Source: Metallosphaera hakonensis JCM 8857 = DSM 7519 (GTDB lineage Archaea; Thermoproteota; Thermoprotei_A; Sulfolobales; Sulfolobaceae). Taken from it: a stretch of 64,000 bases of DNA. Position numbers and translations under genes: made by a program. Each line of letters begins with the position of its first letter. Position 1 is the first letter of the stretch. The notes below the pieces were generated by a model that was given only the letters and a program-made list of their open reading frames with translations, was not told where the DNA came from and did not search any database. This document shows, piece by piece, positions 2,546-52,731 of the stretch. The stretch spans positions 2,096,001-2,160,000 of the forward strand of contig NZ_CP029287.2 of NCBI RefSeq assembly GCF_003201675.2, given 5' to 3'.

Positions 2546-2817
2546 GCGAGAAGGTCCAGGATTTTTCTCATGTAAACCTTTACAAAGTAAAAAACCCTAT
2601 AGTCCCTGAAGATATTTTCGTTCTCATAAAGAAGGGAAATGTAGTTGTCGGGATCGTATCTCTTTACGTTAAGTTTCATTCCTTCTATTGTTAGCTGATT
2701 TGGGCATTCCTTCTTTGAAACTATAAGAAGCTCATCCCCCTTAATACCTGCAAGCATTACGTCCCATTTACCTACCATCTCAACCGCTTGGAGAACAATC
2801 TCCTTTTCACCTAGCAA
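2488..2817 (-). CDS. Unknown protein translationally coupled to lbpA
   Basis: Unrecognised protein of about 109 residues with mixed alpha/beta composition ([21 protein letters not shown], then [17 protein letters not shown]), one cysteine and no membrane segment. It overlaps the end of the LbpA gene, which lies just upstream on the same strand. Two starts are possible, TTG at 2838 and TTG at 2817. The second has an AGGAGG ribosome site nine bases before it and is used here. The position directly behind lbpA suggests a role with the lipoate-carrier protein, but no motif supports a specific function. Its 3' end overlaps a small gene on the other strand. Confidence 0.6.
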
Positions 2818-3220
2818 TCCGACTGGCCTCCTTTTCAAATATTTCCTTAACCTCTCCTATGGGCTTAAAGACCTTCTTATCTAGTTCCTCCACTCTTATT
2901 TTCACTATCCAGGTCCCGTAAGGATCTTCGTTTAGAAAATTGGCGTTGTCTAATACTTTGTTGTTTACCTCTATGACCTCTCCGTGGATTGGAAACCTAA
3001 ATTTCCCGACCCATTTGGCACTTTCCACAGTGAAAATCGGAGTTCGTGGATTTACCTTTTCTCCAACGTTCTTTGCTGAAACCTGGAAAATCTTACCAGT
3101 CATGTACTGACCAAGGTCCGTTATTCCTAGCGTTATGACGTTTCCCTCAATCTTTGCCCACACATGCTTCTCCGCATCATATAGTAGATCATCAGGAAAG
3201 GAGAAACCACTTATTTGCAT
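2807..3220 (-). CDS. lbpA: Lipoate-binding protein LbpA (GcvH-like carrier of the sHdr pathway)
   Basis: A 137-residue GcvH-fold protein. The glycine-cleavage H-protein pattern is seen in [18 protein letters not shown] (residues 17-34) and in the lipoyl loop [19 protein letters not shown], where Lys69 is the predicted lipoylation site (family motif ESxK). No glycine-cleavage genes accompany it. The complete sHdr operon, DsrE/TusA genes, lipoate ligase and lipoyl synthases lie within 20 kb instead. That is the context known for LbpA, the lipoyl carrier essential for sHdr-based sulfur oxidation. The ATG at 3220 is divergent from an HAD-like gene 52 bp away. A coupled unknown gene follows. Confidence 0.88.
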
Positions 3221-4850: not shown

Positions 4851-4880
4851 TTTGCTAAAATAAGCAAAGATTTATATATA
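4851..4880 (+). promoter_or_regulatory. TATA box with adjoining inverted repeat upstream of regulator gene
   Basis: TTTATATATA at 4871-4880 is a strong TATA-like element 30-39 nt before the ATG at 4910. Immediately upstream is TTTGCT-AAAATA-AGCAAA (4851-4868), a perfect inverted repeat of 6-bp arms. It covers the BRE position, where a bound repressor would block TFB/TBP. GTGAG-like bases just before the ATG may act as a weak ribosome site. Confidence 0.45.
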
Positions 4881-4909
4881 CGTTTTTACCACATATTATG
4901 TGAGTAAGA

Positions 4910-5296
4910 ATGGAAGTCCAAAAATTAAAAGCAAGGCTTCCTTCTGGAAGGGAAGTAGGGTTGGTTGAAGCTCTAAGCTTCTGTTACGACATTTCAGATA
5001 CCGATTTCCAAATACTAAAGGCACTGATAAACATGGGCCCTAAGACTGAGGATGATTTGGCGTCAGTACTGAAACTCAGTAAGGCCTCAATTAACAGATC
5101 AGTGAATAAGTTGATTTCTATAGGTTTTGTGGAAAGAGTAAAGGATCAAGGTTCAAAGGGTGGTAGGCCCAGATATATTTACAAGGCGGTTGATGCTGAA
5201 GCCCTTGTGGATAAAATAGGAAAGGACTTTGAATATTGCGCCAAGTTATTCAGTGGACTCACGCCTGCTGAACTTAAGAGCTTTCCGAAGCCTTAG
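4910..5296 (+). CDS. Winged-helix regulator with paired cysteines (paralogue of 5748-6080)
   Basis: A 128-residue MarR/TrmB-like winged-helix regulator. The N-terminal Cys25 lies in [18 protein letters not shown], followed by [32 protein letters not shown] (helix-turn-helix) and a [10 protein letters not shown] wing. Cys110 ([10 protein letters not shown]) lies in the C-terminal helix. The same layout, cysteines included, recurs in the gene at 5748-6080. The two flank a TusA-like gene and a YHS gene, so response to sulfur species or metals is plausible. The cysteines could sense persulfide or bind metal, but this is not shown by sequence alone. Confidence 0.72.
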
Positions 5297-5447
5297 GGCA
5301 CTTGAATATAAATCTTTCTGGCTCCCTCATGAAAGTCAGTTGGCATATTTCAGTATCAAAGTAATATGTTATCTCTTCATATTTTTGTTGATATGGTGTA
5401 CATTCGGCCTCAAAAAGCCTGTTGCAGACTGGACATATAACCTTCAT
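5274..5447 (-). CDS. 57-residue YHS-domain protein
   Basis: A short gene with a single YHS-type metal-binding domain. Seen are [15 protein letters not shown] at the N-terminus, then [20 protein letters not shown] and ERFI. This reproduces the YHS pattern PVCG...tYYFCs..C...F...PE.F, with Cys5, Cys8, Cys16 and Cys35 as candidate ligands and Cys50 near the end. The start is ATG at 5447 and the stop TAA ends at 5274, overlapping the 3' end of the convergent regulator by 23 bp. It is divergent from the TusA-like gene at 5502. Small YHS/TRASH proteins usually bind heavy metals or serve as metallochaperones, so a role in copper or other metal handling is the likely guess. Confidence 0.68.
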
Positions 5448-5501
5448 GGGGCTCTGATTATTGAAAAGACTTTTTAGCTTTTTGGATATGTTATAAACCT
5501 C

Positions 5502-5762
5502 ATGGAGGAGCTAAATCTCCTAGATCTAGAGTGTCCCGAACCTTTCATGAAAGTAGCAGCCAAGTTAATGAAAATGAAGCAAGGCAGACTTAAGATATTG
5601 TTTAAGGACCCTAAATGTGACGATATGATAATGGAGGCTGTGAAACTAATGGACTGCAAAGTTTTGGAACATAGATCGCAGGAAGGAACATATGTGCTGG
5701 TTTTAGAGAAGAATCCGAGCTCTAGCAACGAGAACAAAGTACAAGAGCTAGGCGGTTGCTGA
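5502..5762 (+). CDS. TusA/SirA-family sulfur carrier-like protein
   Basis: An 86-residue TusA-fold protein. The hallmark is [19 protein letters not shown] with Cys11 in a CPxP motif, which in TusA carries a persulfide. This is followed by a [12 protein letters not shown] strand and a [11 protein letters not shown] helix-strand. Two additional cysteines (in DPKCDD and MDCKV) are present, plus one at the very C-terminus. It differs clearly from the canonical TusA encoded at 17189. The 3' end overlaps the convergent regulator gene by 15 bp. It probably takes part in intracellular sulfur trafficking. The partner is unknown. Confidence 0.75.
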
Positions 5763-6080
5763 AAGAATCCTTTCCGCGCATCTCTTTAAGTCCATCCTAA
5801 CTCTCTCTTGGAAACTTTCCGATACGGAATATAGATATTTAGGACGTCCAATGCGCTTTCCGTCTATTTTTATCCTTTCAATCAATCCAAGTTCTATCAG
5901 CTTCTTCATACTGTTCTCGACCGTGGTTTTACTTAGGCCCATTAATTTACCTAGCTCCACTGAGGTCTTAGGTTCCCCAACCTCAATTAACTTGAAAAGA
6001 CATTCCACATCGGTCTCTGTGATCTTGTAGCAACATCTTATACTTTCCTTTCTATCTTTCAGAGTATCTAGGGCTTCCAT
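5748..6080 (-). CDS. Winged-helix regulator with paired cysteines (paralogue of 4910-5296)
   Basis: A 110-residue regulator of the same design as the one at 4910. Cys16-Cys17 lie in [17 protein letters not shown]. Next come [32 protein letters not shown] (helix-turn-helix), a GRPKYLYS wing, and Cys101 in [10 protein letters not shown] at the C-terminal helix. Cys27 is an extra cysteine. Convergent with the TusA-like gene. The conserved CY.I.[DE]TD start and C-terminal [FL]..CA signature suggest a thiol or metal switch shared by the pair. Confidence 0.72.
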
Positions 6081-7585: not shown

Positions 7586-8620
7586 ATGGCAGCTTTTAGA
7601 TTTATCATTGAAAGGGGTCCACAGTATCATCTCTTGGCTGGAGAAGAGGCTCTTCTAGACTCAGTAGCTGAAGGCGCAGACCCGGTTCTTCGATTTGTGA
7701 TCTTTGATCCCACCGCAGTGCTTTTGGGTTATCATCAATCGGCGGAGCAGGAGATTAACCTGGAGAAAGTAAGGGAAAGGAAGTGGGATGTAGGTAGAAG
7801 ACCAACAGGAGGTGGAACGATTATAATGGGTCCAGGTCAATTGGGTTGGGAGATATACGCCGAGTCATCAATGCTAGGTGGATCAATCGAGTCAGCAATC
7901 AGGCGATCGGCCGACGGCGTCATCTCAACTCTCTCTAAGTTCGGGATTAGGGCTAATTTTAGACCTAAGAATGACGTTGAAATAAATGGGAGAAAGATTT
8001 CCGGATTAGGCGCATTCTCTGTTGGAAAATATGTGTCTGTAACAGGCACCATACTCGTGGACTTTGATGTGGACAGCATGGTGGACACCTTGAGGCTAAG
8101 TGCAGAGAAGATGAGGGATAAGGTATCGAAAGATTTCAAGGAGAGAATAACTTGGTTAAATAGGGAACTTGGTTCGACCGTATCCATAGAGGAAGTCATT
8201 AAGGAAGCAAAGGTTTCCTTTAAGGAATCCCTAGGCGTTGAATTAAGTGAGGGAAGGTACTCTTTAAGGGAAGAGGAGAGCATAAAAGAATTGGAATTTA
8301 AATACAGATCCCAAGAATGGATATTCGGTCTAAGGCAAACTCTACATGGGGATAACGTAAGACGGGGGGAAATTAAACTTCCAGGTGGTCTCCTTAGGGT
8401 TCAAATTAAGATGGCAGGGAAAGGGCTCATAGAGTCTGCATTAATAACTGGAGATTTCTTTGTGGAACCAAGGAGAAGCATATATGACCTTGAGGCTAGG
8501 CTAAAATGGTCTAGGGTTGAGGACATCGACAAAGAGGTTTCAGAGTGGTTCCAGGGAGTGAAAATATTGGGTATTGACAAGGAACAGTTAACTAGGTTCT
8601 TGGAGGGGTTAGCCAAGTGA
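7586..8620 (+). CDS. Lipoate-protein ligase, fused sLpl(AB) type
   Basis: Adenylates lipoate or octanoate and transfers it to a carrier lysine, here presumably LbpA Lys69. Residues 71-77 are RRPTGGG, the ligase signature. NDVEINGRKISG (about 129-140) contains the catalytic Lys137. A C-terminal domain (about 270-344) has the LplB/C-domain pattern ending in ITGDFFVEPRRSIYDLE. Having both domains in one 344-residue chain distinguishes it from the split ligase at 52008-52977. The gene opens a five-gene operon. The next gene overlaps its stop by 4 bp. The position beside radical-SAM lipoyl synthases and the sHdr genes matches the lipoate assembly known for sulfur oxidisers. Confidence 0.88.
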   Translation: MAAFRFIIERGPQYHLLAGEEALLDSVAEGADPVLRFVIFDPTAVLLGYHQSAEQEINLEKVRERKWDVGRRPTGGGTIIMGPGQLGWEIYAESSMLGGSIESAIRRSADGVISTLSKFGIRANFRPKNDVEINGRKISGLGAFSVGKYVSVTGTILVDFDVDSMVDTLRLSAEKMRDKVSKDFKERITWLNRELGSTVSIEEVIKEAKVSFKESLGVELSEGRYSLREEESIKELEFKYRSQEWIFGLRQTLHGDNVRRGEIKLPGGLLRVQIKMAGKGLIESALITGDFFVEPRRSIYDLEARLKWSRVEDIDKEVSEWFQGVKILGIDKEQLTRFLEGLAK

Positions 8621-9516
8621 GACCTATATTCTTCTATGCTCCATATCTTAAGAAGTACGAAACAGATTACCTGAGTTCAGACGATGGCTGGAGACCCATA
8701 TCGGTGACTGGGACGTCCTGTGCCTTCAGCTGTAAGCATTGCGAAACGAGGGTTTTAGAAGGAATGGAAGACGGTTCAACTAAGGCCAAGTTTGAGAGTG
8801 TCCTGGAGAGAGTTAGTAGTTCTGGCCAAAAGGGAGTCATTCTTTCAGGTGGATCGTCACCTAGGGGCGACGTGCCGATCTGGAAGTACACTGAAGTACT
8901 GAAGAAGTATCCCAATCTAACAGTAATTGCTCACACTGGAGTCGTGAAAAGTAGGGAAATAGCAAGAAGATTCAAAGAAAGCGGAGTAAAGATAGGTTTG
9001 CTAGATATGGTAGGTGATCAAGAGACCATAGATCAAGTCCTTGGCCAACCGTTCACAGTTAAGGACTACCTCAACTCCTTTAGGTATCTGAAAGAAGAAG
9101 GTATCAAGATAGCCCCTCATGTCATAGTGGGCTTAAGTAGGAAAGGTATAGAGGGGGACCTTCATGCCCTAGAGTTGTTAAGTGAAGTAAATCCTGACGC
9201 AGTGATAATAGTGGGCCTTATGCCCCTTGTGGGAACTCCCTATAAGAACACGAGGGAGCCTTCCCCTGAAGAATTGGCTAAAGTTCTTCTTAGGGCTAGG
9301 GAACTCTTCTCGAATCCAGTTATGCTAGGTTGTGCTAGACCTAGAGGTAAGGCCTATATTTCGGTGGAGAGACTGGCCGTTGACCAAGGAATAGATGGAA
9401 TGGCCTTTCCCTCCGAAGAAACCATAGAGTACGCCAAGGATAAGCGAGAAGTGGTTTTAAGCCACGCGTGTTGTGGAAACGTGATTCATGACTTTCTATT
9501 ACGGGTGTCCATATGA
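8617..9516 (+). CDS. Radical-SAM lipoyl synthase subunit (LipS1/LipS2 type, first)
   Basis: A 299-residue radical-SAM protein. The CX3CX2C cluster site is CAFSCKHC near residue 35-42. Late conserved cysteines are seen in LGCARP and HACCGN, matched in the homologue at 51169-52011 (GCMRP and DACC), which suggests ligands of an auxiliary iron-sulfur cluster that donates sulfur. In archaea and sulfur oxidisers two such proteins, LipS1 and LipS2, together replace LipA and insert sulfur at C6 and C8 of the octanoyl chain. I cannot say which of the two this is. It starts with GTG at 8617 inside the ligase stop (GTGA) and its own stop overlaps the next start (ATGA), so the three genes are translationally coupled. 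Confidence 0.85.
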   Translation: MRPIFFYAPYLKKYETDYLSSDDGWRPISVTGTSCAFSCKHCETRVLEGMEDGSTKAKFESVLERVSSSGQKGVILSGGSSPRGDVPIWKYTEVLKKYPNLTVIAHTGVVKSREIARRFKESGVKIGLLDMVGDQETIDQVLGQPFTVKDYLNSFRYLKEEGIKIAPHVIVGLSRKGIEGDLHALELLSEVNPDAVIIVGLMPLVGTPYKNTREPSPEELAKVLLRARELFSNPVMLGCARPRGKAYISVERLAVDQGIDGMAFPSEETIEYAKDKREVVLSHACCGNVIHDFLLRVSI

Positions 9517-10580
9517 CTCTAAGAATAAATGAGATAAAAACTGTGAGTAGCCCTGACTGGGTTAGGCTCAGTTTCGGGGCAGATATGGTATTGGGATTTT
9601 CTCCTGGGAAGTTCTTGAAAGGAGCTCTGAATACCACGATAAACTTACTTCAATACTATCCTGACGGATGTAAGGCCAACTGTATTTACTGTGGACAGGC
9701 TAGAGAAGTGAGTCAGGGTCCAGAATGTAAGACACTCATAAGAGTGGAATGGCCTTTACGTCAGCTTAACGCTGTTCTAGAAAGGATTAAAGAGAGACAA
9801 GGAGATCCTAATTACGGTCTACAACGAATATGCGTTGGTCAGTTGGCCCATCCTAGAGCGTCACCAGACGCAATTGAAATTACAAGGAGGATAAGGGAGA
9901 ACGGCATTGAACTTCAAATCTCCGAATTGGTCACTGCGACTTACACTCGGAAGGAAGATATGAGAAAAATGAAGGAAGCAGGAGGGAATATGATTGATGT
10001 TGCCATAGATGCGGCTAGTAAGAGAGTTTTCGATGCAGTTAGAGGCAAACCTGTAAGAAGTATGCATAACTGGGACAGATATGTTGAGGCCATCGATGAT
10101 GCCGTAGAGGTTTTCGGCAAAAAGAACGCAGGGATTCATCTGATCATAGGCTTAGGTGAGACGGAGCAGGAGGCAGTTAATCTTATGCTTTATGCCCACT
10201 CAAGAGGGGCAAAGATAAGTCTGTTTGCCTTCTATCCGGAGGAGACCACTCCCATGGAGAACAGAAAGCCGGTTCCAGTTCACGTTTATAGAAGAATGCA
10301 GCTGTCTAGGTGGTTAATAGAGAACGACTTAGTTAAAGCAGACGATTTCAGGTTCGATGAGAGCGGTCAATTAGTGGATATAGAGCTGAAGTCAGACATT
10401 TCGTTGAACGAATTATCTGGAGCCTTCATGACGAGCGGATGCCCAGGTTGCAATAGACCTTACTCCAATGAGAGGCCTGGAGATAGACTTAGAAACATTC
10501 CATGGTATCCAACGGAGAAACAAACTATAAGCGCACTGAAGACGTCTAGATTACCTTTGGCCAAGAGGTTCATTAACTAA
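9513..10580 (+). CDS. Radical-SAM lipoyl synthase subunit (LipS1/LipS2 type, second)
   Basis: A 355-residue radical-SAM protein, partner of the preceding gene. The SAM cluster site is CKANCIYC (in PDGCKANCIYCGQ, about residues 52-60). Near the C-terminus MTSGCPGCNRPYSNERPGD carries a CxxC pair that is conserved in the shorter homologue at 50372-51172 (TSGCPSCDRPFYNEDP). Central HLIIGLGETEQE is a typical SAM-barrel strand-loop. Predicted role is sulfur insertion into protein-bound octanoyl groups to form lipoyl-LbpA. It overlaps the previous gene by ATGA and is followed without spacing by the M23-like gene. Confidence 0.85.
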   Translation: MTLRINEIKTVSSPDWVRLSFGADMVLGFSPGKFLKGALNTTINLLQYYPDGCKANCIYCGQAREVSQGPECKTLIRVEWPLRQLNAVLERIKERQGDPNYGLQRICVGQLAHPRASPDAIEITRRIRENGIELQISELVTATYTRKEDMRKMKEAGGNMIDVAIDAASKRVFDAVRGKPVRSMHNWDRYVEAIDDAVEVFGKKNAGIHLIIGLGETEQEAVNLMLYAHSRGAKISLFAFYPEETTPMENRKPVPVHVYRRMQLSRWLIENDLVKADDFRFDESGQLVDIELKSDISLNELSGAFMTSGCPGCNRPYSNERPGDRLRNIPWYPTEKQTISALKTSRLPLAKRFIN

Positions 10581-16761: not shown

Positions 16762-17178
16762 TTGGCAGGAAAGAAGTTATCAATAATTGTGTTCTCAGGA
16801 ACAGTAGATAAATTGATGCCCGTGGGAATTCTGGCCTCAGGTGCAGCGGCTTCTGGATACGAGGTTAATCTTTTCTTCACCTTCTGGGGTCTAAACGCAA
16901 TTAGTAAGAGAGGTATGCAGGCTCAACCTCAAGTAGATAAGAATTATGAGCAAATGGGTTCCATGATGATGAAGAGGATGATGGAAATGAAGTTCCCCAT
17001 GTGGACTCAGCTTGTCAGTGAGGCTAAGGAAGTTGGAGAAGTGAAAGTCTATGCGTGCTCAACTACCATGGAGTTCTTCGGGCTTAAAAAAGAGGATCTT
17101 GCTGAATTTGTGGACGACGTAGTCGGCGTAGCCACCTTCCTAGATAGAGCAGAAGGTGGAACAACACTCTTTATTTGA
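16762..17178 (+). CDS. dsrE3A: Sulfurtransferase DsrE3A
   Basis: A 138-residue DsrE-family protein. Seen are SIIVFSGTVDKLMPVGILASGAAASG, VNLFFTFWGLNAISK and VKVYACSTTMEFFGLKKEDL, where the Cys after the strand is the predicted sulfur-carrying residue. The middle is rich in Met (GSMMMKRMMEMKFP). It is 10 bp upstream of tusA and forms with it the pair that in Metallosphaera was shown to bind and transfer thiosulfate between DsrE3A and TusA. Start is TTG supported by the GGTGG site. It is divergent from the other DsrE gene. Confidence 0.9.
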   Translation: MAGKKLSIIVFSGTVDKLMPVGILASGAAASGYEVNLFFTFWGLNAISKRGMQAQPQVDKNYEQMGSMMMKRMMEMKFPMWTQLVSEAKEVGEVKVYACSTTMEFFGLKKEDLAEFVDDVVGVATFLDRAEGGTTLFI

Positions 17179-17188
17179 GGCGATCAAT

Positions 17189-17431
17189 ATGTCAACCGAA
17201 GCCAAGATATCTAAAACCCTAGACGTAAAGGGAATGTATTGCCCTGGTCCTGTAATGGAGACTGCCAAGGCAATAAAGCAGATCAACGTTGGTGAAGTTC
17301 TAGAGGTTCTAGCAACCGATCCAGCTGCGAAGCCGGATATAGAGGCTTGGGCCAGAAGGACAGGCCACCAAATATTAGATATTCAGCAACAGGGTGGAGT
17401 TACTAGGATCCTCGTGAAGAGGGCCAAGTAA
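17189..17431 (+). CDS. tusA: Sulfur carrier protein TusA
   Basis: TusA of about 80 residues. DVKGMYCPGPVMETAKAIK holds the active Cys in the CPxP motif, followed by the VGEVLEVLATDPAAKPDIEAWARRTGH half typical of canonical TusA. It carries sulfane sulfur or thiosulfate from DsrE3A to the sHdr complex. The start is set at ATG 17189 because GAGGCGAT lies just before it. An upstream in-frame start at 17156 would overlap dsrE3A and adds residues not found in TusA. An eight-T run follows. Confidence 0.9.
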   Translation: MSTEAKISKTLDVKGMYCPGPVMETAKAIKQINVGEVLEVLATDPAAKPDIEAWARRTGHQILDIQQQGGVTRILVKRAK

Positions 17432-17447
17432 CTTATTTTATTTTAGA

Positions 17448-17455
17448 TTTTTTTT
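17448..17455 (+). terminator. T-run after tusA
   Basis: Eight T residues within a T-rich stretch (17434-17455) directly behind tusA, ahead of a new TATA-like CTTATAAG (about 17461-17468) for hdrC1. The dsrE3A-tusA and hdr transcripts can thus be separate, with some read-through possible. Confidence 0.5.
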
Positions 17456-17501
17456 AACAAAACTTATAAGTCACCTTTTATCATTATTTACTTGTGAAAA
17501 G

Positions 17502-18344
17502 ATGGCTCAAGCAAAGAGTATACTTCAACTCCCAGACGACCCAAGATTTCTAGATATGGCATATGAAGTCCAAGGTGCAGTTCCCGAGGAGGAAAGAAAC
17601 CTCATTTCCAACCTATCTCCTCAAGACAGGGAGACGGCCCTCAAATTCTGGCAAGCAGTTAAGTCCGACTTTAGATATGATGAATACCTAAGAGGTTGCC
17701 TTAACTGTGGAGTATGCACCTCCGGTTGTCCTGCAGCCAAATTCTACGACTTCGGTCCTAGGGAAATGATTCAGTACATGATGAGGGACGAAGTTGATAA
17801 AATCTGGGAATTCACCAACAAGAAAGTTTGGGCATGCGTGCAGTGCTACACATGTTCCATGAGGTGTCCGTTCAACAACGAGATAGCCGGGCTTATAATG
17901 CTACTTAGGGAGTACTCAGTTCAATTTGCGCTCCCATCAGCTAAGGAGATTCTCGCCCCATACAGAAGGGTTCTCTATACCGTACTTACAATGGGCAATC
18001 AAGTAACCCCAGACATGATTCAGCCCGACTCCTTCCCAGACTGGGGTCCTCAAGCCGTAGAAGAGTCAAAGAACATGGATGTATACAGAAAGGCTATACC
18101 AGTTGATCTAATGCAGAGAACAGATATAGGTTGGCATCCATCTCTGCAGACTGCTGTGGAAATGATGACTATAATGATTGAGGCCGGCGTTATGGAGTCC
18201 CTTAAGGGAGTAGACAAGGACTTATACGATATGATAATGGATATTTACGAGGACAGAAAGTCCCAGCTTGAGGAAATCAAGGAGAAGTGGCAGAAGGGAG
18301 AACTGGACGAAAACGAGCTCCCAGATAGCTGGTTAGATCTTTAA
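17502..18344 (+). CDS. hdrC1: sHdr subunit HdrC1, two [4Fe-4S] ferredoxin-like protein
   Basis: Electron-transfer subunit of the sulfur-oxidising heterodisulfide reductase-like complex. CLNCGVCTSGCP (about residues 66-77) and CVQCYTCSMRCP are two complete CX2CX2CX3CP sites for [4Fe-4S] clusters. The C-terminal 130 residues are helical and acidic. At 280 residues it is longer than methanogen HdrC, as is usual for the sHdr type. It starts with ATG at 17502 after GTGA. The order hdrC1-hdrB1-hdrA-hyp-hdrC2-hdrB2 follows, so this is the first gene of the complex. A T-rich stretch behind it may attenuate transcription. Confidence 0.92.
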   Translation: MAQAKSILQLPDDPRFLDMAYEVQGAVPEEERNLISNLSPQDRETALKFWQAVKSDFRYDEYLRGCLNCGVCTSGCPAAKFYDFGPREMIQYMMRDEVDKIWEFTNKKVWACVQCYTCSMRCPFNNEIAGLIMLLREYSVQFALPSAKEILAPYRRVLYTVLTMGNQVTPDMIQPDSFPDWGPQAVEESKNMDVYRKAIPVDLMQRTDIGWHPSLQTAVEMMTIMIEAGVMESLKGVDKDLYDMIMDIYEDRKSQLEEIKEKWQKGELDENELPDSWLDL

Positions 18345-18479
18345 TCTTTTTCGTAAGGTTTTTCCTCTTTTTTCCCGCTAATTGCTAGAGTTTTGAGAAA
18401 ACTTTCATAGTTACATAAAATGTTTAATAAGTAAAGTATATAACCCTGGGCAATATTATAATGATTGAAGGTGCAAAGT

Positions 18480-19814
18480 TTGGCTACGCAAGAAATTGAT
18501 AAGAAAATGGAGGAAGAGCTGAAGGAAGCCTTCCCCATGGCTGACAACATGGACTGGAACGAAGTGTACCAGAGGATTATATATAGGTACAGTACTCCTC
18601 ATGGTCTAGATCATGTAAAGGAAGAGCTCTATAAATTAGAGGACAAGGGAGAGATCATCATTCATCATATTAAACCCTACAACAATCCAGTGAAGATGCA
18701 GACATTGAACGGTTCACCCAAGGTCATTCCAACTACTAAGTTATGGCAACACAAGAGTTGTGGACAGTGCGGTCACATCCCAGGTTATCCAACATCAGTC
18801 TTCTGGATGATGAACAAGATGGAGATAGATTACATGGACGAGCCCCACCAGACCTCTTGTACAGGCTGGAACTACCACGCCTCTGGTGCTTCGAACCCGG
18901 TGGCGCTAGCGGGAGTCTATGTTAGGAATATGTGGAGAGCCTACGAGATAGATTACTTCCCACTTATACACTGTGGTACTTCGTTCGGTCATTACAAGGA
19001 AATCAGGAACATGTTGGTCCTTCATAAGGAGATTAGAGACAAACTGAGACCTATTATGAGGAAAATGGACATGGATATAGTAATACCAGAGGAAGTTGTC
19101 CATTATTCCGAGTGGTTATATACTATGAGTAAGAAGGCTGCTCAGCAGAAGAAATACGACTTGAGCAATATTAGGGCAGCGGTTCACACGCCATGCCACG
19201 TCTACAAGCTCGTTCCAGAGGACACGATATATGACCCCGACGTCTTCCAGGGTAGAAGACCTGCTGCTCCAAGCGGAACCGCACAGAACTTCGGAGCTAA
19301 GCTTGTTGACTACTCAACCTGGTGGGATTGCTGTGGATTCGGCTTCAGGCACATCCTGACAGAGAGGGAGTTCTCGAGGAGCTTTGCCCTATTTAAGAAG
19401 GTTATACCAGCGGTAGAGGAAGGTAAAGCAGACATATTCGTGACCTCAGACACCGGATGTGTAACCACTCTAGACAAGAGTCAGTGGGCAGGGAAAGCTC
19501 ACGGATTCAACTACAACCTTCCAGTATTGGCTGACGCTCAGTTCGCAGCGATTGCTATGGGCGCAGATCCCTATACCATTGCCCAGGTTCACTGGCACGC
19601 AACTGACGTAGAAGGTTTCATGAGGAAGATAGGTGTAAACGTAGATGATTACAAGGAGAAGTTTATCCAGTATTTAGCTGACTTGAGAGAAGGCAAAGCT
19701 GAGCCAGAGTATCTGTATAAACCACACAGGAAGATCGACTTCTACCTATCAGTGCCAGAAAGGGTCAAGTGGTACAAGGGCGAAAAGGCCCAAACGTCAA
19801 ACACTTCTAAGTAA
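18480..19814 (+). CDS. hdrB1: sHdr subunit HdrB1, CCG-domain catalytic subunit
   Basis: HdrB-type subunit with two cysteine-rich CCG domains that bind non-cubane iron-sulfur clusters. The first is variant: KSCGQCGHIP, TSCTGWNYH and LIHCGTSFGH. The second has HTPCHVYK, WDCCGFGFRH and SDTGCVT. The variant first domain is usual for B1 of the sHdr complex. I place the start at TTG 18480 because GGTG at 18470-18473 lies six bases before it. A TTG at 18465 would add five residues. The protein is about 445 residues, longer than HdrB2. It should act with HdrA and HdrC1 in converting carrier-bound sulfane sulfur to sulfite. Confidence 0.9.
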   Translation: MATQEIDKKMEEELKEAFPMADNMDWNEVYQRIIYRYSTPHGLDHVKEELYKLEDKGEIIIHHIKPYNNPVKMQTLNGSPKVIPTTKLWQHKSCGQCGHIPGYPTSVFWMMNKMEIDYMDEPHQTSCTGWNYHASGASNPVALAGVYVRNMWRAYEIDYFPLIHCGTSFGHYKEIRNMLVLHKEIRDKLRPIMRKMDMDIVIPEEVVHYSEWLYTMSKKAAQQKKYDLSNIRAAVHTPCHVYKLVPEDTIYDPDVFQGRRPAAPSGTAQNFGAKLVDYSTWWDCCGFGFRHILTEREFSRSFALFKKVIPAVEEGKADIFVTSDTGCVTTLDKSQWAGKAHGFNYNLPVLADAQFAAIAMGADPYTIAQVHWHATDVEGFMRKIGVNVDDYKEKFIQYLADLREGKAEPEYLYKPHRKIDFYLSVPERVKWYKGEKAQTSNTSK

Positions 19815-19858
19815 ACCTTTTTAATTATTTTTATTAAAAATGATCTGAGAGTGAGAAT

Positions 19859-20956
19859 TTGGCAGGAGAAAAGGTCCTCGTAGTCGGATCGGGTCCAGCG
19901 GGTCTTTCTGCTACAAAGGAGTTAAGAAACCTAGGAGTTGACGTTGTCTTAGTTGAGAGAGAGTCCTACCTAGGCGGAACTCCAAAGAAGCTGAAGTATA
20001 GTCTCCTATTTCCTGAACTGAGGCCTGCTTCAGAGGTTCTTGACCCACTGATTAAGGGAGTGGAGTCAAGCGGTGTTAAAACCTACATGGAAAGCATAGT
20101 TGAGGGAGTTAAGGACGAGGGAAAAGGCTTTACCGTCTCCATTAAAGATAAGTCGGGAAAAATAACTAACGAGAAAGTTAATGCAATAATTGCAGCATCA
20201 GGATTCGAACACTTCGATTCCAGGAGGAAGTACGAGTACGGTTATGGAATTATCCCCAATATCTACCAGATCTCGGACATAGAAAGAATGCTCTCTGAGA
20301 ACAAGCTGGTTACAACTAAGGGAACTCCTCCAAAGAGGGTTGCAATACTTCTATGTGTGGGTTCAAGGGACGCCACTGTTGGTAACACTTATTGCTCCAG
20401 GGTGTGCTGTGCAGTCTCAACGAAGCAGGCTATGGAAATCAAGGAGAGGGTCCCTGACGCCGTGGTCCATATTTACTACATGGATATCAGAACTTACGGC
20501 CTCATGGAGGACAAACTGTACTGGAAGTCTCAGCTTGAGTACAGGGTAGGATACATTAGAGGTAGAATCTCGGAGTTCATGAGAGGTCCGAATGATACGG
20601 TCATCATTAAGGGAGAAGACACCATGAATTTGAACAGAGCCCTAGTAGTTCCCTATGATATGGTTATCCTAGCTAACGGTATGGAATTGGGTCTCGGATC
20701 GAAGCAAGTGGCCAAGGCGTTAGGCTTAGAGCTTGAGGAGCACGGATTCGTGAAACCCATAGATCCAGACAGGCTACCCGTTCAGTCTACTAAGAAGGGC
20801 ATCTTCTTGGCAGGAGCCATAACAGGTCCCAAGACCATATCTGACTCAATAACTGAAGGCTATGCTGCAGCCATGAAGGCCTACGAGTACGTAACCAAGG
20901 GAGTCTGGGACGAATCAGACTTCGCCAAGAAGAGGGTCGAGGTGGCCCATCATTAG
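19859..20956 (+). CDS. hdrA: sHdr subunit HdrA, FAD protein
   Basis: Flavin subunit of sHdr, 365 residues. LVVGSGPAGLSA at residues 7-18 is the FAD dinucleotide fold. GNTYCSRVCCAVSTKQA holds the cysteines that bind the conserved [4Fe-4S] cluster in this family, and IFLAGAITGPKTISDSITEGYAAA is the second FAD region. It lacks the extra ferredoxin and MvhD-like domains of methanogen HdrA, in line with sHdrA, which does not perform the same bifurcation. Start TTG 19859 follows a GAGAGTGAG site. The preceding T-rich spacer separates it from hdrB1 by 44 bp. Confidence 0.92.
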   Translation: MAGEKVLVVGSGPAGLSATKELRNLGVDVVLVERESYLGGTPKKLKYSLLFPELRPASEVLDPLIKGVESSGVKTYMESIVEGVKDEGKGFTVSIKDKSGKITNEKVNAIIAASGFEHFDSRRKYEYGYGIIPNIYQISDIERMLSENKLVTTKGTPPKRVAILLCVGSRDATVGNTYCSRVCCAVSTKQAMEIKERVPDAVVHIYYMDIRTYGLMEDKLYWKSQLEYRVGYIRGRISEFMRGPNDTVIIKGEDTMNLNRALVVPYDMVILANGMELGLGSKQVAKALGLELEEHGFVKPIDPDRLPVQSTKKGIFLAGAITGPKTISDSITEGYAAAMKAYEYVTKGVWDESDFAKKRVEVAHH

Positions 20957-20966
20957 TACAGTTTTT

Positions 20967-21675
20967 TTGAACATTGATTTTGTACGTGAGATTTACAACG
21001 CAATGTTGAACGTAGATGTAAATAACACGGCCTCAGGAGACGCTAAGAAATCCCTAAATCTGATCCTAGAGGCCATGAAACTAAAGTCCGATTTCCTCAG
21101 GACCGTACAGGTGTCTACAGAGGAGGAAATGAAGCAGGTCTTCGACTCGGTTTTCTATGCGAGAAAGCATTACGATGATGCACTGAGAAATTCTGGAGTC
21201 GCTGTCTTCTCAAAAGCCTTAGAGACTCTAAGGGATCAAGATTTGAGTTATGAGGATCGTGTAAAAAGGTTCTCGTCAGCGATAAAGGCAACGGACCAGG
21301 AGGATATTGAGGATATGTCCAAAGAGATAATTCATTATCTTTACCCTGAGGAGTTTCCTCTGTGGACCAGATGGATATGGAACCAGTCTAAGAACACAGG
21401 CTCAATAAATTACGTGTTAAAGGAGAATCTCTCCCTGAAATCCCACGGAGAGTTTCTCTCAGCAGTGGATGAGTTAAGAAAGGTCCTAGAGGTTTTCGGG
21501 CTCTCCACAGGTAACTATTATCCAACCTCAATTTTTCTAGTGTATGCGTATGTGAGGTATTTAGACTACACAACACACCTCGCGGTCGATAAGAAGGCTG
21601 CGGGGTTGATTCCCACACACCTCACAACCACGGCCCTGGTTATGGGCCTAAAACCATTTATCAAGGTGATAAAAC

Positions 21676-21689
<14 letters not shown>
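20967..21689 (+). CDS. sHdr-associated conserved protein (hyp)
   Basis: The 240-residue protein of unknown function that always lies between hdrA and hdrC2 in sHdr operons. It has no cysteine. It is helical with [15 protein letters not shown] and [15 protein letters not shown], and the last part ([21 protein letters not shown]) is hydrophobic but not clearly membrane-spanning. The start is TTG at 20967, 10 bp after hdrA. An ORF end overlapping hdrC2 by 14 bp shows co-translation. It may be an assembly or structural partner of the complex. Confidence 0.82.
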
Positions 21690-22364
<675 letters not shown>

Positions 22365-22368
<4 letters not shown>

Positions 22369-23285
22369 CCGAAATAATGAATCCATACGGGAAAGTGGCC
22401 CTGTATCCGGGCTGCGCTTTAGACGGACTTGGGAAATCATACGATGTCACGTTACAACTGGTAGCCAAGGACTTAGGAATTAACTATGAAAAGATTGAGG
22501 ACTACAACTGCTGTGGAGCGCTGGAGGTAAAGAACGTAAACACCATGGCTGGGCTCCTACTTCCTGCTAGGAACTTGTCCCTAGCGAGACAGATGGGAGC
22601 GAACGCTGTGATGTCAGCCTGTCCAGGATGTCACTACTCGCTTTCAAGAACTCAGTACTTCATGACTAGATATCCAAAGCTAAGGGAAAAGGTAAACGGC
22701 TACCTAGAGAAGATGGGAGAAAAACAGTACGACATGCAGTTACTCATGATACACGCTGTAGAGTTCATTTATAACACTGTTGGACCCGAGGGAGTCAAGA
22801 GCAGAGTAAAGAGACCGCTTCAGGGACTTAAGGTCGCCCCATATTATGGATGCCTCTACTCTAGACCCAAGGCCTACACTCTCACGGGATATATGAAGAT
22901 GAAGGATGACCCAGAGAGGCCGGTATTCATGGACGAACTCCTGACAGCTCTTGGAGCAGAGGTAGTTCCCTTCGAGTCAAAGACCATGTGCTGTGGAGGC
23001 CCCCACGTTTACTCGGACGTCAATACATCCCTCCACTTAGAGGCCAGAATACTCAAGGATGCTAGAAGGAACGGAGCGGAGCTTCTAATCACTGACTGTC
23101 CATTGGGTCACGTAGCCATAGAGACGAACATGAACAAAATAGCAGAGAAGTACGGAGAAGATTTGAGGATGCCCTTGACTTACTTCACTCAATTGCTGGC
23201 TTTCGCCTTCGGACATAGTCCAGAGGAAACGTTGTTAACAGCCAACCTCACGAACCCCATGTCGGTACTGAAAAGGTATATGTAA
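22365..23285 (+). CDS. hdrB2: sHdr subunit HdrB2, canonical CCG-domain subunit
   Basis: A 306-residue HdrB with two intact CCG domains. The first has [16 protein letters not shown] and ACPGCHYS. The second has [16 protein letters not shown] and DCPLGH. These ligate non-cubane [4Fe-4S] clusters, the site of disulfide or persulfide chemistry. Unlike HdrB1 it matches the methanogen pattern fully. Last gene of the complex operon, overlapping hdrC2 by 4 bp and followed by two six-T runs. Confidence 0.92.
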
Positions 23286-26462: not shown

Positions 26463-26705
26463 ATGGTCTCAGTGACAAAGGTACACAGAAAGGGAATAGT
26501 TGTTATTCCGAAGGAGTTGAGAGAGATGTTTAACATCAAAGAGGGAGACGAGGTTCTTATTTTCAGTGACGAATTTGGTATCCACATACTTCCAAAGAAG
26601 TCTCCAGAAGAGTTATTCGGGATAGATAGCGGAAAGGGTCTTGAGGAGCTGGCGAAGGAACAGATTAAGGAAAGGGAGGCCGAACGTGCGAAGGTATATT
26701 CTTGA
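26463..26705 (+). CDS. vapB: VapB-type antitoxin, AbrB family
   Basis: An 80-residue protein. VSVTKVHRKGIVVIPKELREMF and NIKEGDEVLIFSDEFGIHILPK form an AbrB/SpoVT swapped-hairpin DNA-binding domain. The acidic/basic C-terminal tail (EELAKEQIKEREAERAK) would wrap the toxin. It overlaps vapC by 20 bp. The pair is usually autoregulated by the antitoxin-toxin complex binding its promoter. GTTAAAC-like A/T-rich sequence precedes the ATG. Confidence 0.88.
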   Translation: MVSVTKVHRKGIVVIPKELREMFNIKEGDEVLIFSDEFGIHILPKKSPEELFGIDSGKGLEELAKEQIKEREAERAKVYS

Positions 26706-27072
26706 TGCCAATATAATCTTTCAATTCTTTTCTGGTTCACCACTTGTGAAGAAGTTTCTCATAAACAACGATGAGAGGTTAATAAACGCAGTGAACCTCT
26801 CAGAGTTCGCCTATCACTACGCTAGAAGATATGGACTTAAGGCATCAAACGCGAGATTAAACTATCTCTTAACCTTCGTTAAGTTTGTTGAAGTCGATAG
26901 GACTTTAACAGAGATAGCGTCGAGAGCCAGAGTGAAATATAACCTTTCTTTGGGGGATTCGTTTCTTATAGCCACTGCCGAAAGGGAACGGGGAATAATA
27001 GTTACTTCTGATCACGAGTTGGTGGAAAGGGCATCCAACGACTACCACGTTGAGTTTGTCCCTCTCATGTAA
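26686..27072 (+). CDS. vapC: VapC-type PIN-domain toxin
   Basis: Ribonuclease toxin of 128 residues. The acidic PIN residues are all seen: Asp in YILDANIIF, Glu in VNLSEFAYHY, Asp in LGDSFLIATA and Asp in VTSDHEL. The start is set at GTG 26686, with GGGAGG six bases upstream inside vapB. A longer frame from 26641 adds only residues that do not fit the family. It cleaves RNA when released from the antitoxin. Confidence 0.88.
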   Translation: MRRYILDANIIFQFFSGSPLVKKFLINNDERLINAVNLSEFAYHYARRYGLKASNARLNYLLTFVKFVEVDRTLTEIASRARVKYNLSLGDSFLIATAERERGIIVTSDHELVERASNDYHVEFVPLM

Positions 27073-29712: not shown

Positions 29713-30297
29713 ATGCTAAGCCCTAAAGAAGTCTGTCAACGTCTAGGGATATCCTATGCAACGCTTAGAGAATATGTTAAGAAGGGTTACATCAAACCAG
29801 TAGTACTAGAGACAGGAAAGTGGAGGTTCAGGGAAGAGGATATTGAGAAATTAATGGGGATTGTTAGAAAGAGGAAAATAGTATTGTACGCTAGGGTATC
29901 ATCAAACACACGAAAAGATGACTTAGTAAACCAAGTAAAATACCTCGAGGAACAAGTCAAAGAGTACGACCAAGTAATAACAGACGTGGGTTCTGGGTTA
30001 AACATGAAGAGAAAAGGATTCCTCAAGTTGTTGAGAATGATACTAAACAACGAAGTGTCGAAAGTAGTCATAGCTTACCCAGACAGACTGGTTAGGTTCG
30101 GGTTTGAGATACTAGAGGAAGTGTGTAAAGCACACAACTGCGAAATAGTCGTGCTAAACGAGGAAGACAAAACACCAGAACAGGAGTTGATAGAGGATCT
30201 GACCTCAATCCTAGTATCATTTAGTGGGAAGCTCTACGGAATGAGGAGTAACAAATACGAGAAGGTAAAGAAGTGTGTCCAAGAACTTAAGAATTAA
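29713..30297 (+). CDS. tnpA: IS607-family serine recombinase TnpA
   Basis: A 194-residue transposase with an N-terminal MerR-like helix-turn-helix (SPKEVCQRLGISYATLREYVKKGYI, residues 3-27) and a resolvase-type catalytic domain. IVLYARVSSNTRKDDL contains the nucleophilic Ser (about residue 63), and VIAYPDRLVRFGFE the DRLxRF motif. This is the DNA-binding-first arrangement that defines IS607. It overlaps tnpB by 23 bp. Confidence 0.92.
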   Translation: MLSPKEVCQRLGISYATLREYVKKGYIKPVVLETGKWRFREEDIEKLMGIVRKRKIVLYARVSSNTRKDDLVNQVKYLEEQVKEYDQVITDVGSGLNMKRKGFLKLLRMILNNEVSKVVIAYPDRLVRFGFEILEEVCKAHNCEIVVLNEEDKTPEQELIEDLTSILVSFSGKLYGMRSNKYEKVKKCVQELKN

Positions 30298-31570
30298 ATC
30301 ATTCCAACCTGAAGAGGAGTATGTATACCTAACGTACTCCTTAAAGAACGACAAGAAGGAAGAAAGCAAGATATTAGTAGAGAACTACAAAATCCTACTA
30401 CAGAAAGCATTAGATTGGTTATGGGATAGGACAAAGGTGGAGAGAAAACAAGTGAAGAAAGGTAAGAAAATTTTCACAAAGATCAAAATAACCTTACCCG
30501 AGAGGAAGGAAGTGTATAAGACGTTAAGGGATGAGTTAGAGAAAGTAAACGTGCTAGCTTCCCACTACGTCGACAGGGCAATCAATGATTCATTCTCTAT
30601 CCTAAAGTCGTGGAAGAGGAGGGCTGAAAAGGGACAAGCCTCATTAAGGAAACCTAAACTGAAGAAGGTTTACGTTAGGGTGAAGTCAACGCTGAGAAAG
30701 GTGGAAGGCAAATCGGTTAGAGTGACTGTTAAACCTTACGAATACATCACCTTCTCTTGGTCTCACACCTGGTTCTCTAGACGGGTTAAGGGACTTGAGT
30801 TAGGTGAGCCAATAATTAAGGAGGACAAAGTGTATTTACCGTTCCGCTATGAGCTACCCTGGAGTACTCCAATAGATTTTCTGTCCGTTGACACTAACTT
30901 GTATACCCTTGATGCTTATGATGGTGATAAGTTCGTCACGTTCTCCATTAAGGAGCTCTACAGTTTGAAGTACGGGATGCAGTTGAAGATGAGTAGGGTA
31001 AGGTCTTTTGCTTCAAAACAAACGAAAAAGGGTATGGAATTGATGAGGAAGTATTCTCACCGTGAGAGGAACAGCGTGGTGGACTATATTCACAAGTTCG
31101 TGAATAAGTTGCAGGAGACGTATCCCATTACGATGTTTGCTGTTGAAAAACTGAATAAACAAGCAATGTTCGAAGATGCTAATGATTCTCTTTCAAAAAA
31201 GATTTCCAAGACTGTATGGAGGTCAATCCACCGTTTGCTTAAATACAAGGCTCCTCTTTATGGTTCTTTTGTAAAGGAGGTGAACCCGCACCTCATATCT
31301 AAGTCCTGCCCCAGATGTGGACGGGTTTCCCGAAAGGTCGGCAGGACTTTTAGGTGTGAGAGGTGTGGGTTCACGTTAGATAGGCAGTTGAATGCGTCAC
31401 TTAACATCTACCTCAAGATGTACGGGTTTCCCCACATCTGTGATATTCCGCGGGTGTGGGTTGGGGTTACCCCGCTAAAGGGACGGAGAGGGATGAACGG
31501 GGCAATGCCCCGTGACTTCGGTGAAGTCCAAGGGCTGAGGATTGATATGAAATATTATGAAATCCTATGA
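30275..31570 (+). CDS. tnpB: TnpB RNA-guided nuclease of the IS607-type element
   Basis: A 431-residue TnpB. The RuvC-like active site is complete: Asp206 in LSVDTNL, Glu291 in FAVEKLN and Asp369 in TLDRQLNASLN. The zinc ribbon is CPRCG (345-349) and CERCG (361-365). TnpB proteins are programmable nucleases guided by a right-end RNA, which help retain the element. The last 40 residues after the RuvC-III motif are encoded by the GC-rich hairpin region and may be RNA-constrained. No frameshift seen. Confidence 0.92.
   Translation: MSKNLRIKSFQPEEEYVYLTYSLKNDKKEESKILVENYKILLQKALDWLWDRTKVERKQVKKGKKIFTKIKITLPERKEVYKTLRDELEKVNVLASHYVDRAINDSFSILKSWKRRAEKGQASLRKPKLKKVYVRVKSTLRKVEGKSVRVTVKPYEYITFSWSHTWFSRRVKGLELGEPIIKEDKVYLPFRYELPWSTPIDFLSVDTNLYTLDAYDGDKFVTFSIKELYSLKYGMQLKMSRVRSFASKQTKKGMELMRKYSHRERNSVVDYIHKFVNKLQETYPITMFAVEKLNKQAMFEDANDSLSKKISKTVWRSIHRLLKYKAPLYGSFVKEVNPHLISKSCPRCGRVSRKVGRTFRCERCGFTLDRQLNASLNIYLKMYGFPHICDIPRVWVGVTPLKGRRGMNGAMPRDFGEVQGLRIDMKYYEIL
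31463..31528 (+). ncRNA. Candidate omega/reRNA scaffold hairpins at tnpB 3' end
   Basis: Three consecutive perfect hairpins in the last part of tnpB: GGGG-TTA-CCCC (31463-31473), GGGGC-AAT-GCCCC (31499-31511) and GACTTC-GGT-GAAGTC (31514-31528). TnpB guide RNAs are known to be made from this location, overlapping the coding end. The guide would be taken from sequence just past the element's right end. The RNA's true boundaries cannot be read from sequence alone. Confidence 0.5.
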
Positions 31571-48791: not shown

Positions 48792-49008
48792 ATGGATATT
48801 GATCTAACGGGTTTGTGTTGCTCTACTCCTCAAATGATTGTCTATTCGACCTTGAAAAAGGTATCTAGGGGAACAGAGATCAAGATAATCACTGACGATA
48901 GGACAGTAGTGGAACGTGACCTTTATTCCATTGTTAATGGAGAGAGGAGTCGAATTTCAAGTAGAGAAAGGAGAAGACGTCTTCATAATAAAAGTCAAAA
49001 AGAACTAG
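48792..49008 (+). pseudogene. TusA-family gene with a +1 frameshift
   Basis: The first 48 codons read as TusA: MDIDLTGLCCSTPQMIVYSTLKK has the Cys-containing motif (CCSTP, where CPxP is usual), and EIKIITDDRTVVERDLYSIV continues the fold. After ATT-GTT at 48930-48935 the frame is lost. From 48934, one base on, the reading LMERGVEFQVEKGEDVFIIKVKKN restores the expected last strands and stops at TAG 49006-49008. This overlaps the convergent gene by 4 bp, as a native end would. The uncorrected frame runs on for 38 unrelated residues antisense to the flavoprotein gene. A sequencing error, true inactivation or recoding are all possible. Confidence 0.75.
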
Positions 49009-49988
49009 AGCGACTCAACCATTCTAATTGCTCTGTATATTCCCACTCTCTTGGCCAACTCGGCCATGGATCCCTTTACAAATTTCCCCATCATATCACC
49101 AAAATATTCCGGACCAATCCTTAACACCACGGCTACCTGCTTATATGAGAAACGCGTGTCTCCCCCAAGTGCATTCTCTGCTGCGGTCTTTCCAGATTGT
49201 ACTGCGACTTGAGCGGACATTGGAACAAACGTTTTGGTAGTCATGCAGTCACCAGAACCGTAAACGTCTTCGAAGTCAACCGACCTCAAATAGTCGTCCA
49301 CTAGCATTCTTCCATTCTTATTAGTTAGACCTAGGTCCTCCACTAGCCTAGGTCCTCGAAAACCCGCTGCCGCAATAGACATATCGACCTTTATTTCGTC
49401 CTTATCTGTTTTCAGAATCTCTCCCTTTACTTCCTCAACTTTGGTCTTTAACATAACGTTAACTCCCATATCTCTTAGCTTTTTCTCAGCAAATTGTGAG
49501 GCCTCTTTACTCATGAAGGAGAGGAGCCTATCTTGAAATTCAATTAAGTAGACGTTCTTTCCCATTTCTCTTAGGGAGCCCGCAAGTTCTACTCCCAAAG
49601 TCCCTCCTCCTAGAACAGCTACGCTTCTCACTTGGGATAATTTGGCTCTTATGGTCAATGCGTCCTCCAAGTTCTCTAGTTTTTGAATATTACCCTTAAC
49701 CCTAGTGGTGTCTTGCTCATATCCCAAAGAGATTATCAATTTATCATAGCCGATGTGTCCCTGCGTAGTCCTCACAACCTTGGACTTAAAATCAACCCCT
49801 AGAACTCTGGCCTTAATAACGCCCTTGGGATAGGGGATAGACGCCAAAGATGGATTTCCGGTCTCTATGACATCGGTCAGCCTATGTGTAAGGAGAAAAT
49901 ATTCCTTGGAGTCAATTACTATTGCATCCTTGTAAAAATTCAAGGCTGAAAGACCAGCAAATCCTCCTCCTAGAACCACTAATCTCAT
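49005..49988 (-). CDS. NDH-2/SQR-like FAD-dependent NAD(P)H oxidoreductase
   Basis: A 327-residue flavoprotein of the type II NADH dehydrogenase/sulfide:quinone reductase family. Seen are VVLGGGFAGLSA (FAD), VAVLGGGTLGVELAG (NAD(P)), and VYGSGDCMT (second FAD). The C-terminal part is shortened and ends in a basic/hydrophobic helix (KRVGIYRAIRMVESL). Catalytic cysteines of SQR are not obvious, so an NADH:quinone or ferredoxin-type role is favoured. Convergent with the TusA-like gene by 4 bp. Sulfur and redox gene pairing again, but no clear partner. Confidence 0.78.
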   Translation of the reverse strand: MRLVVLGGGFAGLSALNFYKDAIVIDSKEYFLLTHRLTDVIETGNPSLASIPYPKGVIKARVLGVDFKSKVVRTTQGHIGYDKLIISLGYEQDTTRVKGNIQKLENLEDALTIRAKLSQVRSVAVLGGGTLGVELAGSLREMGKNVYLIEFQDRLLSFMSKEASQFAEKKLRDMGVNVMLKTKVEEVKGEILKTDKDEIKVDMSIAAAGFRGPRLVEDLGLTNKNGRMLVDDYLRSVDFEDVYGSGDCMTTKTFVPMSAQVAVQSGKTAAENALGGDTRFSYKQVAVVLRIGPEYFGDMMGKFVKGSMAELAKRVGIYRAIRMVESL

Positions 49989-52730: not shown

Positions 52731-52731
52731 A

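Follow-up and report, generated by a model that had tools for sequence, protein, structure and literature searches.

SoxR and sHdrR, two bacterial regulators encoded with sHdr-lipoate genes, have two key cysteines, and TusA has been suggested as their sulfur donor (PMC12423496, PMC11582611). In archaea, the sHdr genes of Acidianus and Sulfurisphaera respond to sulfur with a rise (PMC11323534), and a search of the part of the literature covered gave no named regulator for archaeal sHdr genes. In the winged-helix protein OxsR, Cys24 is required for DNA binding, and its authors describe the interface cysteines as conserved in most members (PMC9426492); OxsR thus demonstrates that proteins of this kind can use a first-helix cysteine as a working switch. 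For Sto12a, intrachain and interchain disulfides have been published (Shinkai et al. 2007; PMC9426492), and no function, ligand or role at an sHdr locus was found stated in the title of that study or in the sentence citing it. Finally, AbfR1 of M. sedula, a member of the Lrs14 family, contains a disulfide in its last helix, forms disulfide-linked dimers, binds DNA without sequence preference, condenses it and has been placed among the nucleoid proteins (PMC12529230).

The locus described here lies in a stretch of 64,000 nucleotides (the window, G000:C1:2096001-2160000) of the Metallosphaera hakonensis genome, a single contig of 2,544,115 bases. An earlier note, made from the sequence alone, had taken two cysteine-containing winged-helix regulators flanking a TusA-like and a YHS gene for a compact candidate sulfur/metal sensing module. 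With its cysteine switch and sulfur module this interpretation, itself a candidate, was right in outline, but the cysteine argument proved weaker, and the gene-neighbourhood argument stronger, than supposed.

A mirror-like cassette with two Lrs14-type winged-helix proteins

Four genes on alternating strands, P0001 (+), a YHS-like gene (-), a TusA variant (+) and P0002 (-), form a mirror-like cassette (Table 1). P0001 converges on the YHS-like gene with a 3' overlap of 23 bases and the TusA variant converges on P0002 with an overlap of 15 bases, while the two small genes (YHS-like and TusA variant) start back to back from one 54-bp region, which measures 47-54 bp in 15 of the 17 genomes compared. 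A mobile origin of the cassette was considered and rejected, with no plasmid match found.

Table 1. Features of the cassette and of the sHdr-lipoate locus (positions in the window)
Feature	Position	Strand	Basis
GcvH-like lipoate-binding protein (LbpA-like), upstream edge of the conserved block	2807..3220	-	PF01597; syntenic
Perfect inverted repeat TTTGCTaaaataAGCAAA, candidate autoregulatory operator	4851..4868	.	directly upstream of the P0001 promoter
BRE/TATA-like element of P0001, GATTTATATATAC	4869..4881	+	sequence read; position conserved, ~30 bases before the start codon
P0001, Sta1-type Lrs14 winged-helix protein, Cys25 and Cys110	4910..5296	+	NF053606, NF040939, fold matches
YHS-like protein, 57 residues, five invariant Cys	5274..5447	-	sub-threshold PF04945; conservation
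Divergent promoter region of the YHS-like and TusA-variant genes, 54 bp	5448..5501	.	size kept across genomes
P0003, TusA variant (TusAv): Cys11 (CPxP), Cys39, Cys52, disordered tail ending GGC (Cys86)	5502..5762	+	PF01206, TusA fold
P0002, Lrs14 winged-helix protein: Cys16-Cys17, Cys27, Cys101; orthologue of Sto12a/ST1889 (PDB 2D1H)	5748..6080	-	NF040939, 2D1H match
Lipoate assembly: sLpl-type ligase, LipS1-like, LipS2-like	7586..10580	+	PF21948, NF053742, NF053743; syntenic
sHdr system: DsrE-type protein (DsrE3A), TusA, Hdr-like HdrC1, HdrB1, HdrA, HdrC2, HdrB2	16762..23285	+	families

The two regulator reading frames named in the earlier note are real and correctly placed, and their products are paralogues as it had claimed, with 37% identity over 94 residues (E 4e-23). 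They share the described entry motif (CYDISDTD in P0001, CYKITETD in P0002), the wing motif (GRPRY and GRPKY, respectively) and a C-terminal cysteine (Cys101 in P0002 and Cys110 in P0001, the latter placed within a helix by the AlphaFold model). Their reading as winged-helix paralogues stands; what went unrecognised was their membership in the Lrs14 family, together with the sHdr-lipoate locus that hosts them. Against the Lrs14 model NF040939 (cut-off 90 bits), P0001 scores 133.3 and P0002 117.9 bits, and against the Sta1 model NF053606 (cut-off 80 bits) 134.5 and 74.1 bits, respectively. Neither belongs to ArsR/SmtB by NF033788 (13.1 and 12.5 bits vs. a cut-off of 55), and the scores for PF01022 (21.7 and 21.2 vs. 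22) are just below the cut-off, with the TrmB/Lrs14 models fitting far better.

The AlphaFold model of P0001 (pLDDT 89) has the layout of Lrs14 proteins, with a winged helix between an N-terminal helix (residues 18-26) and a long C-terminal helix (96-123); Cys25 is at the end of the first and Cys110 inside the last helix. Its best Foldseek matches are MM_1094 (3R0A), AbfR2 (6CMV) and ST1889/Sto12a (2D1H), which places 6CMV and 2D1H among the top three distinct structures. Among solved structures, 2D1H is closest to P0002 (E 3e-35), and across the 101 residues aligned its sequence is that of the gene at the P0002 position of the cassette in genomes G078 and G125. A persulfide, disulfide or metal switch had been suggested in the earlier note; disulfides are already on record for the P0002 orthologue Sto12a, as cited from Shinkai et al. 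(2007).

Conserved cysteines in the Lrs14 family

The first- and last-helix cysteine columns co-occur without exception among 102 Lrs14 homologues: both are present in 75 proteins and neither in 27, with no protein having only one. Because so few independent events lie behind it, perhaps a loss or two, this co-occurrence is suggestive rather than strong statistics. Both cysteines are among the 13 positions conserved at 98.5% or more in the 75 Cys-type proteins. The first-helix column (Cys25/Cys17), the criterion of OxsR-type proteins in arCOG02242, is cysteine in 75/75 of these, including every member of the P0001 and P0002 clades, and all 25 members of the P0002 group have an additional adjacent cysteine (CC). 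Conservation in orthologues, on which the earlier proposal had been made to depend, is thus complete, with invariant cysteines.

In the Lrs14 tree, which is built from few columns and has weak deep forks, P0001 belongs to a clade of 25 Sulfolobaceae proteins (support 100/99). The other groups are Sta1-type (98/97), AbfR1 (100/99), AbfR2-like (95/86) and the weakly supported P0002 group (72/62). The AbfR1 and AbfR2 clades lack the cysteine pair, which is found in the Sta1-type clade, away from sHdr genes, as well as in relatives from outside the Sulfolobaceae, from genomes without detected sHdr. The pair is therefore not specific to this module: with carriers in the Sta1-type clade and in other families, it is no proof of sulfur sensing on its own, and as a specific mark of sulfur sensing it was rejected. 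Such cysteine pairing is an old trait of the Lrs14 family.

The TusA variant and the YHS-like protein

The TusA-like gene is real: its product scores 58.4 bits against PF01206 (Pfam cut-off 28.6), carries the CPxP motif as CPEP and has a TusA fold. With 34.7 bits against the NCBIfam TusA equivalog NF001423, below the cut-off of 78, it is a relative with the TusA fold and not TusA itself. This fold is followed by 13 disordered residues that end in an invariant cysteine; the best structural match is 3LVJ, and the YeeE-YeeD complex is matched too. Strong matches to the variant occur in 22 Sulfolobaceae genomes, with weak ones elsewhere in the order. Cys11, Cys39 and Cys86 are invariant in the 22 genomes, and Cys52 is present in 21 of these. 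Elsewhere in the window, an ORF at 48792-49124 has a TusA-like start (LTGLCCSTPQ...) followed by low-complexity arginine-rich sequence, and may be a frameshifted TusA-like gene.

The adjoining small gene, called a YHS gene in the earlier note, is an open gene conserved in 21 of the 22 Sulfolobaceae genomes, but its match to the YHS family falls below the gathering score (PF04945, 23.5 vs. 30.3 bits, E 5e-5), so that it can only be termed YHS-like. Its Cys5, 8, 16, 35 and 50 are invariant (21 genomes).

Conservation within the sHdr-lipoate locus

Downstream of the cassette, the window encodes lipoate assembly proteins and an sHdr system (Table 1), the lipoate genes with profile scores of 204.6 bits for NF053742 (cut-off 230) and 240.9 bits for NF053743 (cut-off 270). 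A second radical-SAM and lipoate-ligase-like set (LipS1/LipS2/LplA/LplB-like by eye) is found at 50372-52977, far from the sHdr cluster. Further features of the window are two overlapping ORFs at 29713-31570 that resemble an IS607-type element, a serine recombinase followed by a TnpB-like protein, and an overlapping pair at 26463-27072 that resembles VapB-VapC toxin-antitoxin genes.

When 147 genomes of the order were searched with the four cassette proteins one by one, and with DsrE3A and HdrB2, strong HdrB2 matches were obtained in 22/22 Sulfolobaceae genomes (family f1), with one clearly weaker match elsewhere. The four cassette genes are adjacent in 17 of these 22, and three of the four are in two more (genus g7, P0002 elsewhere). 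In all 19 genomes with three or four cassette genes, 6.8-13 kb separate the cassette's P0001-type gene from DsrE3A. The link between a compact cassette and sulfur that had been proposed is supported by a gene order that ties it to sulfur oxidation in 19/22 Sulfolobaceae genomes. The exceptions are genus g3, including S. acidocaldarius (G042, named through an identity with 6CMV), and genome G119. Genus g3 shows a joint relocation, to a place ~180 kb away, of P0001, the TusA variant and a DUF1641 gene of the sHdr block, hinting at a functional tie between the DUF1641 protein, the TusA variant and the regulator (S. acidocaldarius locus L147, 8945-10018).

Mapped by tblastn in 16 regions, some of which lack single genes, the conserved order begins with the LbpA-like, HAD-like, QueC-like and an unknown gene, P0001, the YHS-like gene, the TusA variant and P0002, and continues with a CoA-binding protein, lipoate ligase, LipS1, LipS2 and, further on, DsrE3A, TusA and the Hdr genes, the block spanning from the LbpA-like gene to HdrB2. 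As a control, 19 genes upstream and 17 downstream of the block were mapped. These are in place in Metallosphaera, and several of the upstream ones also in the sister genus g2 (Candidatus Aramenus); in the regions compared from genera g4-g7, 0/19 upstream genes are in place, and downstream only ABC-transporter-type matches were found, one of which (65%) is possibly orthologous. Because the flanking genes are out of place in g4-g7, gene order has been kept for the block and not for its surroundings, and since order is lost just outside the sHdr-lipoate genes, the block neighbours are not kept together by chance. Chance synteny was ruled out by this comparison.

The examined genomes of genera g6 and g7 have two P0001-clade genes, a cassette copy with 51-56% identity and a far copy with 67-70%. 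The far copies, which fall inside the P0001 branch (100/99), lie just beyond the HdrB2 end (G125:C1:1892776, G136:C1:308316, G090:C1:399500 and G108:C1:1822641, in the genomes of loci L142, L143, L140 and L141, respectively). With the cassette copy at one end and the second copy beyond HdrB2, the sHdr cluster is therefore bracketed by P0001-clade copies in these genera. Loci of the other Lrs14 clades are far from sHdr in most genomes, while the P0001 clade is at most 13 kb away in 19/22. A third Lrs14 gene, AbfR2-like and cysteine-free, is located 3-4 kb from the cassette in genera g4 and g5 (L171 G131:C1:973587, L175 G066:C1:872390 and L191 G050:C1:215570).

A palindrome at the P0001 promoter

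The repeat noted earlier upstream of P0001 is a perfect palindrome, TTTGCTaaaataAGCAAA, which ends directly before the TATA-like element. At the same pre-TATA place it is found in 11 related genomes, perfect in six and with one mismatch in five. It is the sole perfect copy genome-wide, and allowing at most one mismatch yields seven palindromes vs. four control sites. A loose search of the 64-kb window gave eight matches vs. 3.8 expected by chance, and no copy was found at 7553 or 16723 within two mismatches. The promoters at these two positions had been proposed as direct targets; an operator common to them and P0001 was rejected on these grounds, given also the one perfect copy genome-wide. 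The single conserved palindrome thus supports self-regulation of P0001 and not the direct targets proposed earlier. Control of sHdr may run through other, looser sites, as is usual in the Lrs14 family.

A candidate thiol-switch module and its alternatives

Because most Sulfolobaceae keep the cassette inside the sulfur-oxidation cluster, its proteins are good candidates for the missing switch of the sHdr system. We put at about even the chance that P0001, P0002 and their neighbours form a cassette devoted to regulation and sulfur handling at the archaeal sHdr-lipoate locus, with the regulators acting as thiol switches. P0001 and P0002 would be dimeric Lrs14-type winged-helix proteins in which the cysteine of the first helix and that of the last, dimer-forming helix could be joined within or between chains. 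The pair may react with an oxidant or with sulfane sulfur, perhaps supplied by the adjoining TusA variant, and the altered DNA binding of the dimer would set transcription of the cassette via the palindrome at the P0001 promoter, and probably of the neighbouring sHdr and lipoate genes. This explanation starts from what was obtained here, namely the family and fold of the proteins, the conserved and co-occurring cysteines, the conservation of the cassette and of the palindrome, and the physical linkage to sHdr, and takes the Sto12a disulfides and the OxsR thiol switch from the literature; the ligand, the direction of control, the target promoters, delivery by the TusA variant and what the YHS-like protein does are inferred. 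Evidence against it comes from the cysteine pair of the Sta1-type clade and of relatives from genomes without detected sHdr, the lack of a palindrome copy at the sHdr promoters, the non-specific DNA binding of AbfR1 and the reported biofilm role of Saci_1242.

A more specific version, which we consider unlikely, is a sulfur relay in which the TusA variant would pass sulfane sulfur via its terminal cysteine arm to the first- and last-helix cysteines of P0001/P0002, perhaps as a heterodimer, and the resulting sulfur bridge would switch the sHdr-lipoate locus. If true, this relay would mean that archaea had arrived independently, with an unrelated regulator family, at the bacterial principle of TusA handing sulfur to SoxR/sHdrR.

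It is likewise improbable that P0001 and P0002 serve as general nucleoid or architectural proteins, with disulfides that stabilise the dimer in a hot, acid-loving host without any switching and a gene order kept for other reasons. The disulfide-linked dimers of M. sedula AbfR1, which bind DNA non-specifically and condense it (PMC12529230), and the occurrence of the same cysteine pair in non-sHdr clades would fit such a role, but AbfR1 belongs to a different clade that lacks this pair, the palindrome is specific to the P0001 promoter, and it is the P0001 clade that stays within 13 kb of sHdr in 19/22 genomes, other clades being mostly far away (the AbfR2-like genes are near in g4 and g5).

Quite unlikely, in our view, are oxidative-stress thiol switches of the OxsR kind, in which a disulfide would turn on protection genes and sHdr would be one of several targets, as sulfur oxidation yields reactive species, with sulfane sulfur not being the signal. 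OxsR is of the same single winged-helix family, has a cysteine at the first-helix dimer interface and responds in a cysteine-dependent manner (PMC9426492), and the disulfides cited for the P0002 orthologue Sto12a also agree with this explanation. Against it, the neighbouring genes serve sulfur trafficking and lipoate and are not stress genes, and the TusA variant is strongly matched in 22 Sulfolobaceae genomes and weakly elsewhere in the order.

A metal-sensing module, with copper or zinc carried by the YHS-like protein and a metal site completed by the regulator cysteines, is very improbable. The five invariant cysteines of the YHS-like protein and the copper-mobilising lifestyle of Metallosphaera would suit it, but the YHS match is below the family cut-off, the ArsR/SmtB metalloregulator model gives only ~13 bits vs. 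a cut-off of 55, and the identified block genes include neither a metal transporter nor a copper gene. There is, finally, only a slight chance that the cassette hitch-hikes in the conserved block, unrelated to sHdr control and acting in biofilm or growth-phase control, as suggested by reports that Saci_1242, probably the P0002-type gene of S. acidocaldarius, is a biofilm activator whose deletion impairs biofilm (PMC10127717) and that transcripts of saci_0133 and saci_1242, the probable counterparts in this species, rise on starvation (PMC6335949), since the sHdr cluster has a P0001 copy at either end in the examined genomes of g6 and g7, and block order is lost just outside the sHdr-lipoate genes in g4-g7.

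The Lrs14 family, the Sto12a disulfides and the OxsR switch were already known; as far as checked, the mirror-image cassette conserved in the sHdr-lipoate locus, the Cys-tailed TusA variant, the exceptionless co-occurrence of the two cysteines and the palindrome kept at the P0001 promoter are new. Two candidate regulators of archaeal sHdr can now be named; they come with a palindrome at a promoter, cysteines that allow a clear test and a host open to genetics. If the cysteine pair responds to sulfane sulfur, one and the same logic of sensing would have arisen in archaea and bacteria from different protein families, and there would be a role for the cysteine-armed TusA and for Sto12a, a protein with known disulfides and no function assigned in the literature covered.

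Comparison with known systems

Among the known systems, Sto12a (ST1889, PDB 2D1H) of Sulfurisphaera tokodaii is like P0002, of which it is a syntenic orthologue, with the conserved CC and C-terminal cysteine. Sta1, AbfR1 and AbfR2 have the same Lrs14 family and fold as P0001 and P0002, and the Sta1-type clade also has the same cysteine pair; they differ in belonging to other clades of the tree, in the absence of the pair from AbfR1 and AbfR2, and in their assigned viral, DNA-repair, biofilm, motility and nucleoid roles. OxsR (HVO_2970) of Haloferax volcanii is, like the cassette regulators, a single winged helix (TrmB-type) with a first-helix cysteine, which in OxsR forms an intersubunit disulfide controlling DNA binding, a dependence known for OxsR alone. 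Unlike them, it is haloarchaeal, has one cysteine only, responds to hypochlorite and targets thiol-relay genes, and no TusA or sHdr neighbours are described for it. The TusA variant has the TusA fold and the CPxP active-site motif in common with the carriers TusA and TsuB (YeeD), whereas its invariant Cys39 and disordered C-terminal tail with an invariant cysteine are both absent from the canonical TusA at 17156-17431.

In Hyphomicrobium denitrificans, SoxR and sHdrR likewise are a pair of small winged-helix regulators that have two key cysteines, and their genes accompany sHdr-lipoate genes, with TusA adjacent. Both regulators are bacterial members of the ArsR family with other cysteine positions; because the archaeal proteins are not ArsR members, the likeness is one of analogy, not of membership. 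With its putative thiol-switch regulators, the cassette is best read as a putative archaeal analogue of bacterial SoxR/sHdrR plus TusA.
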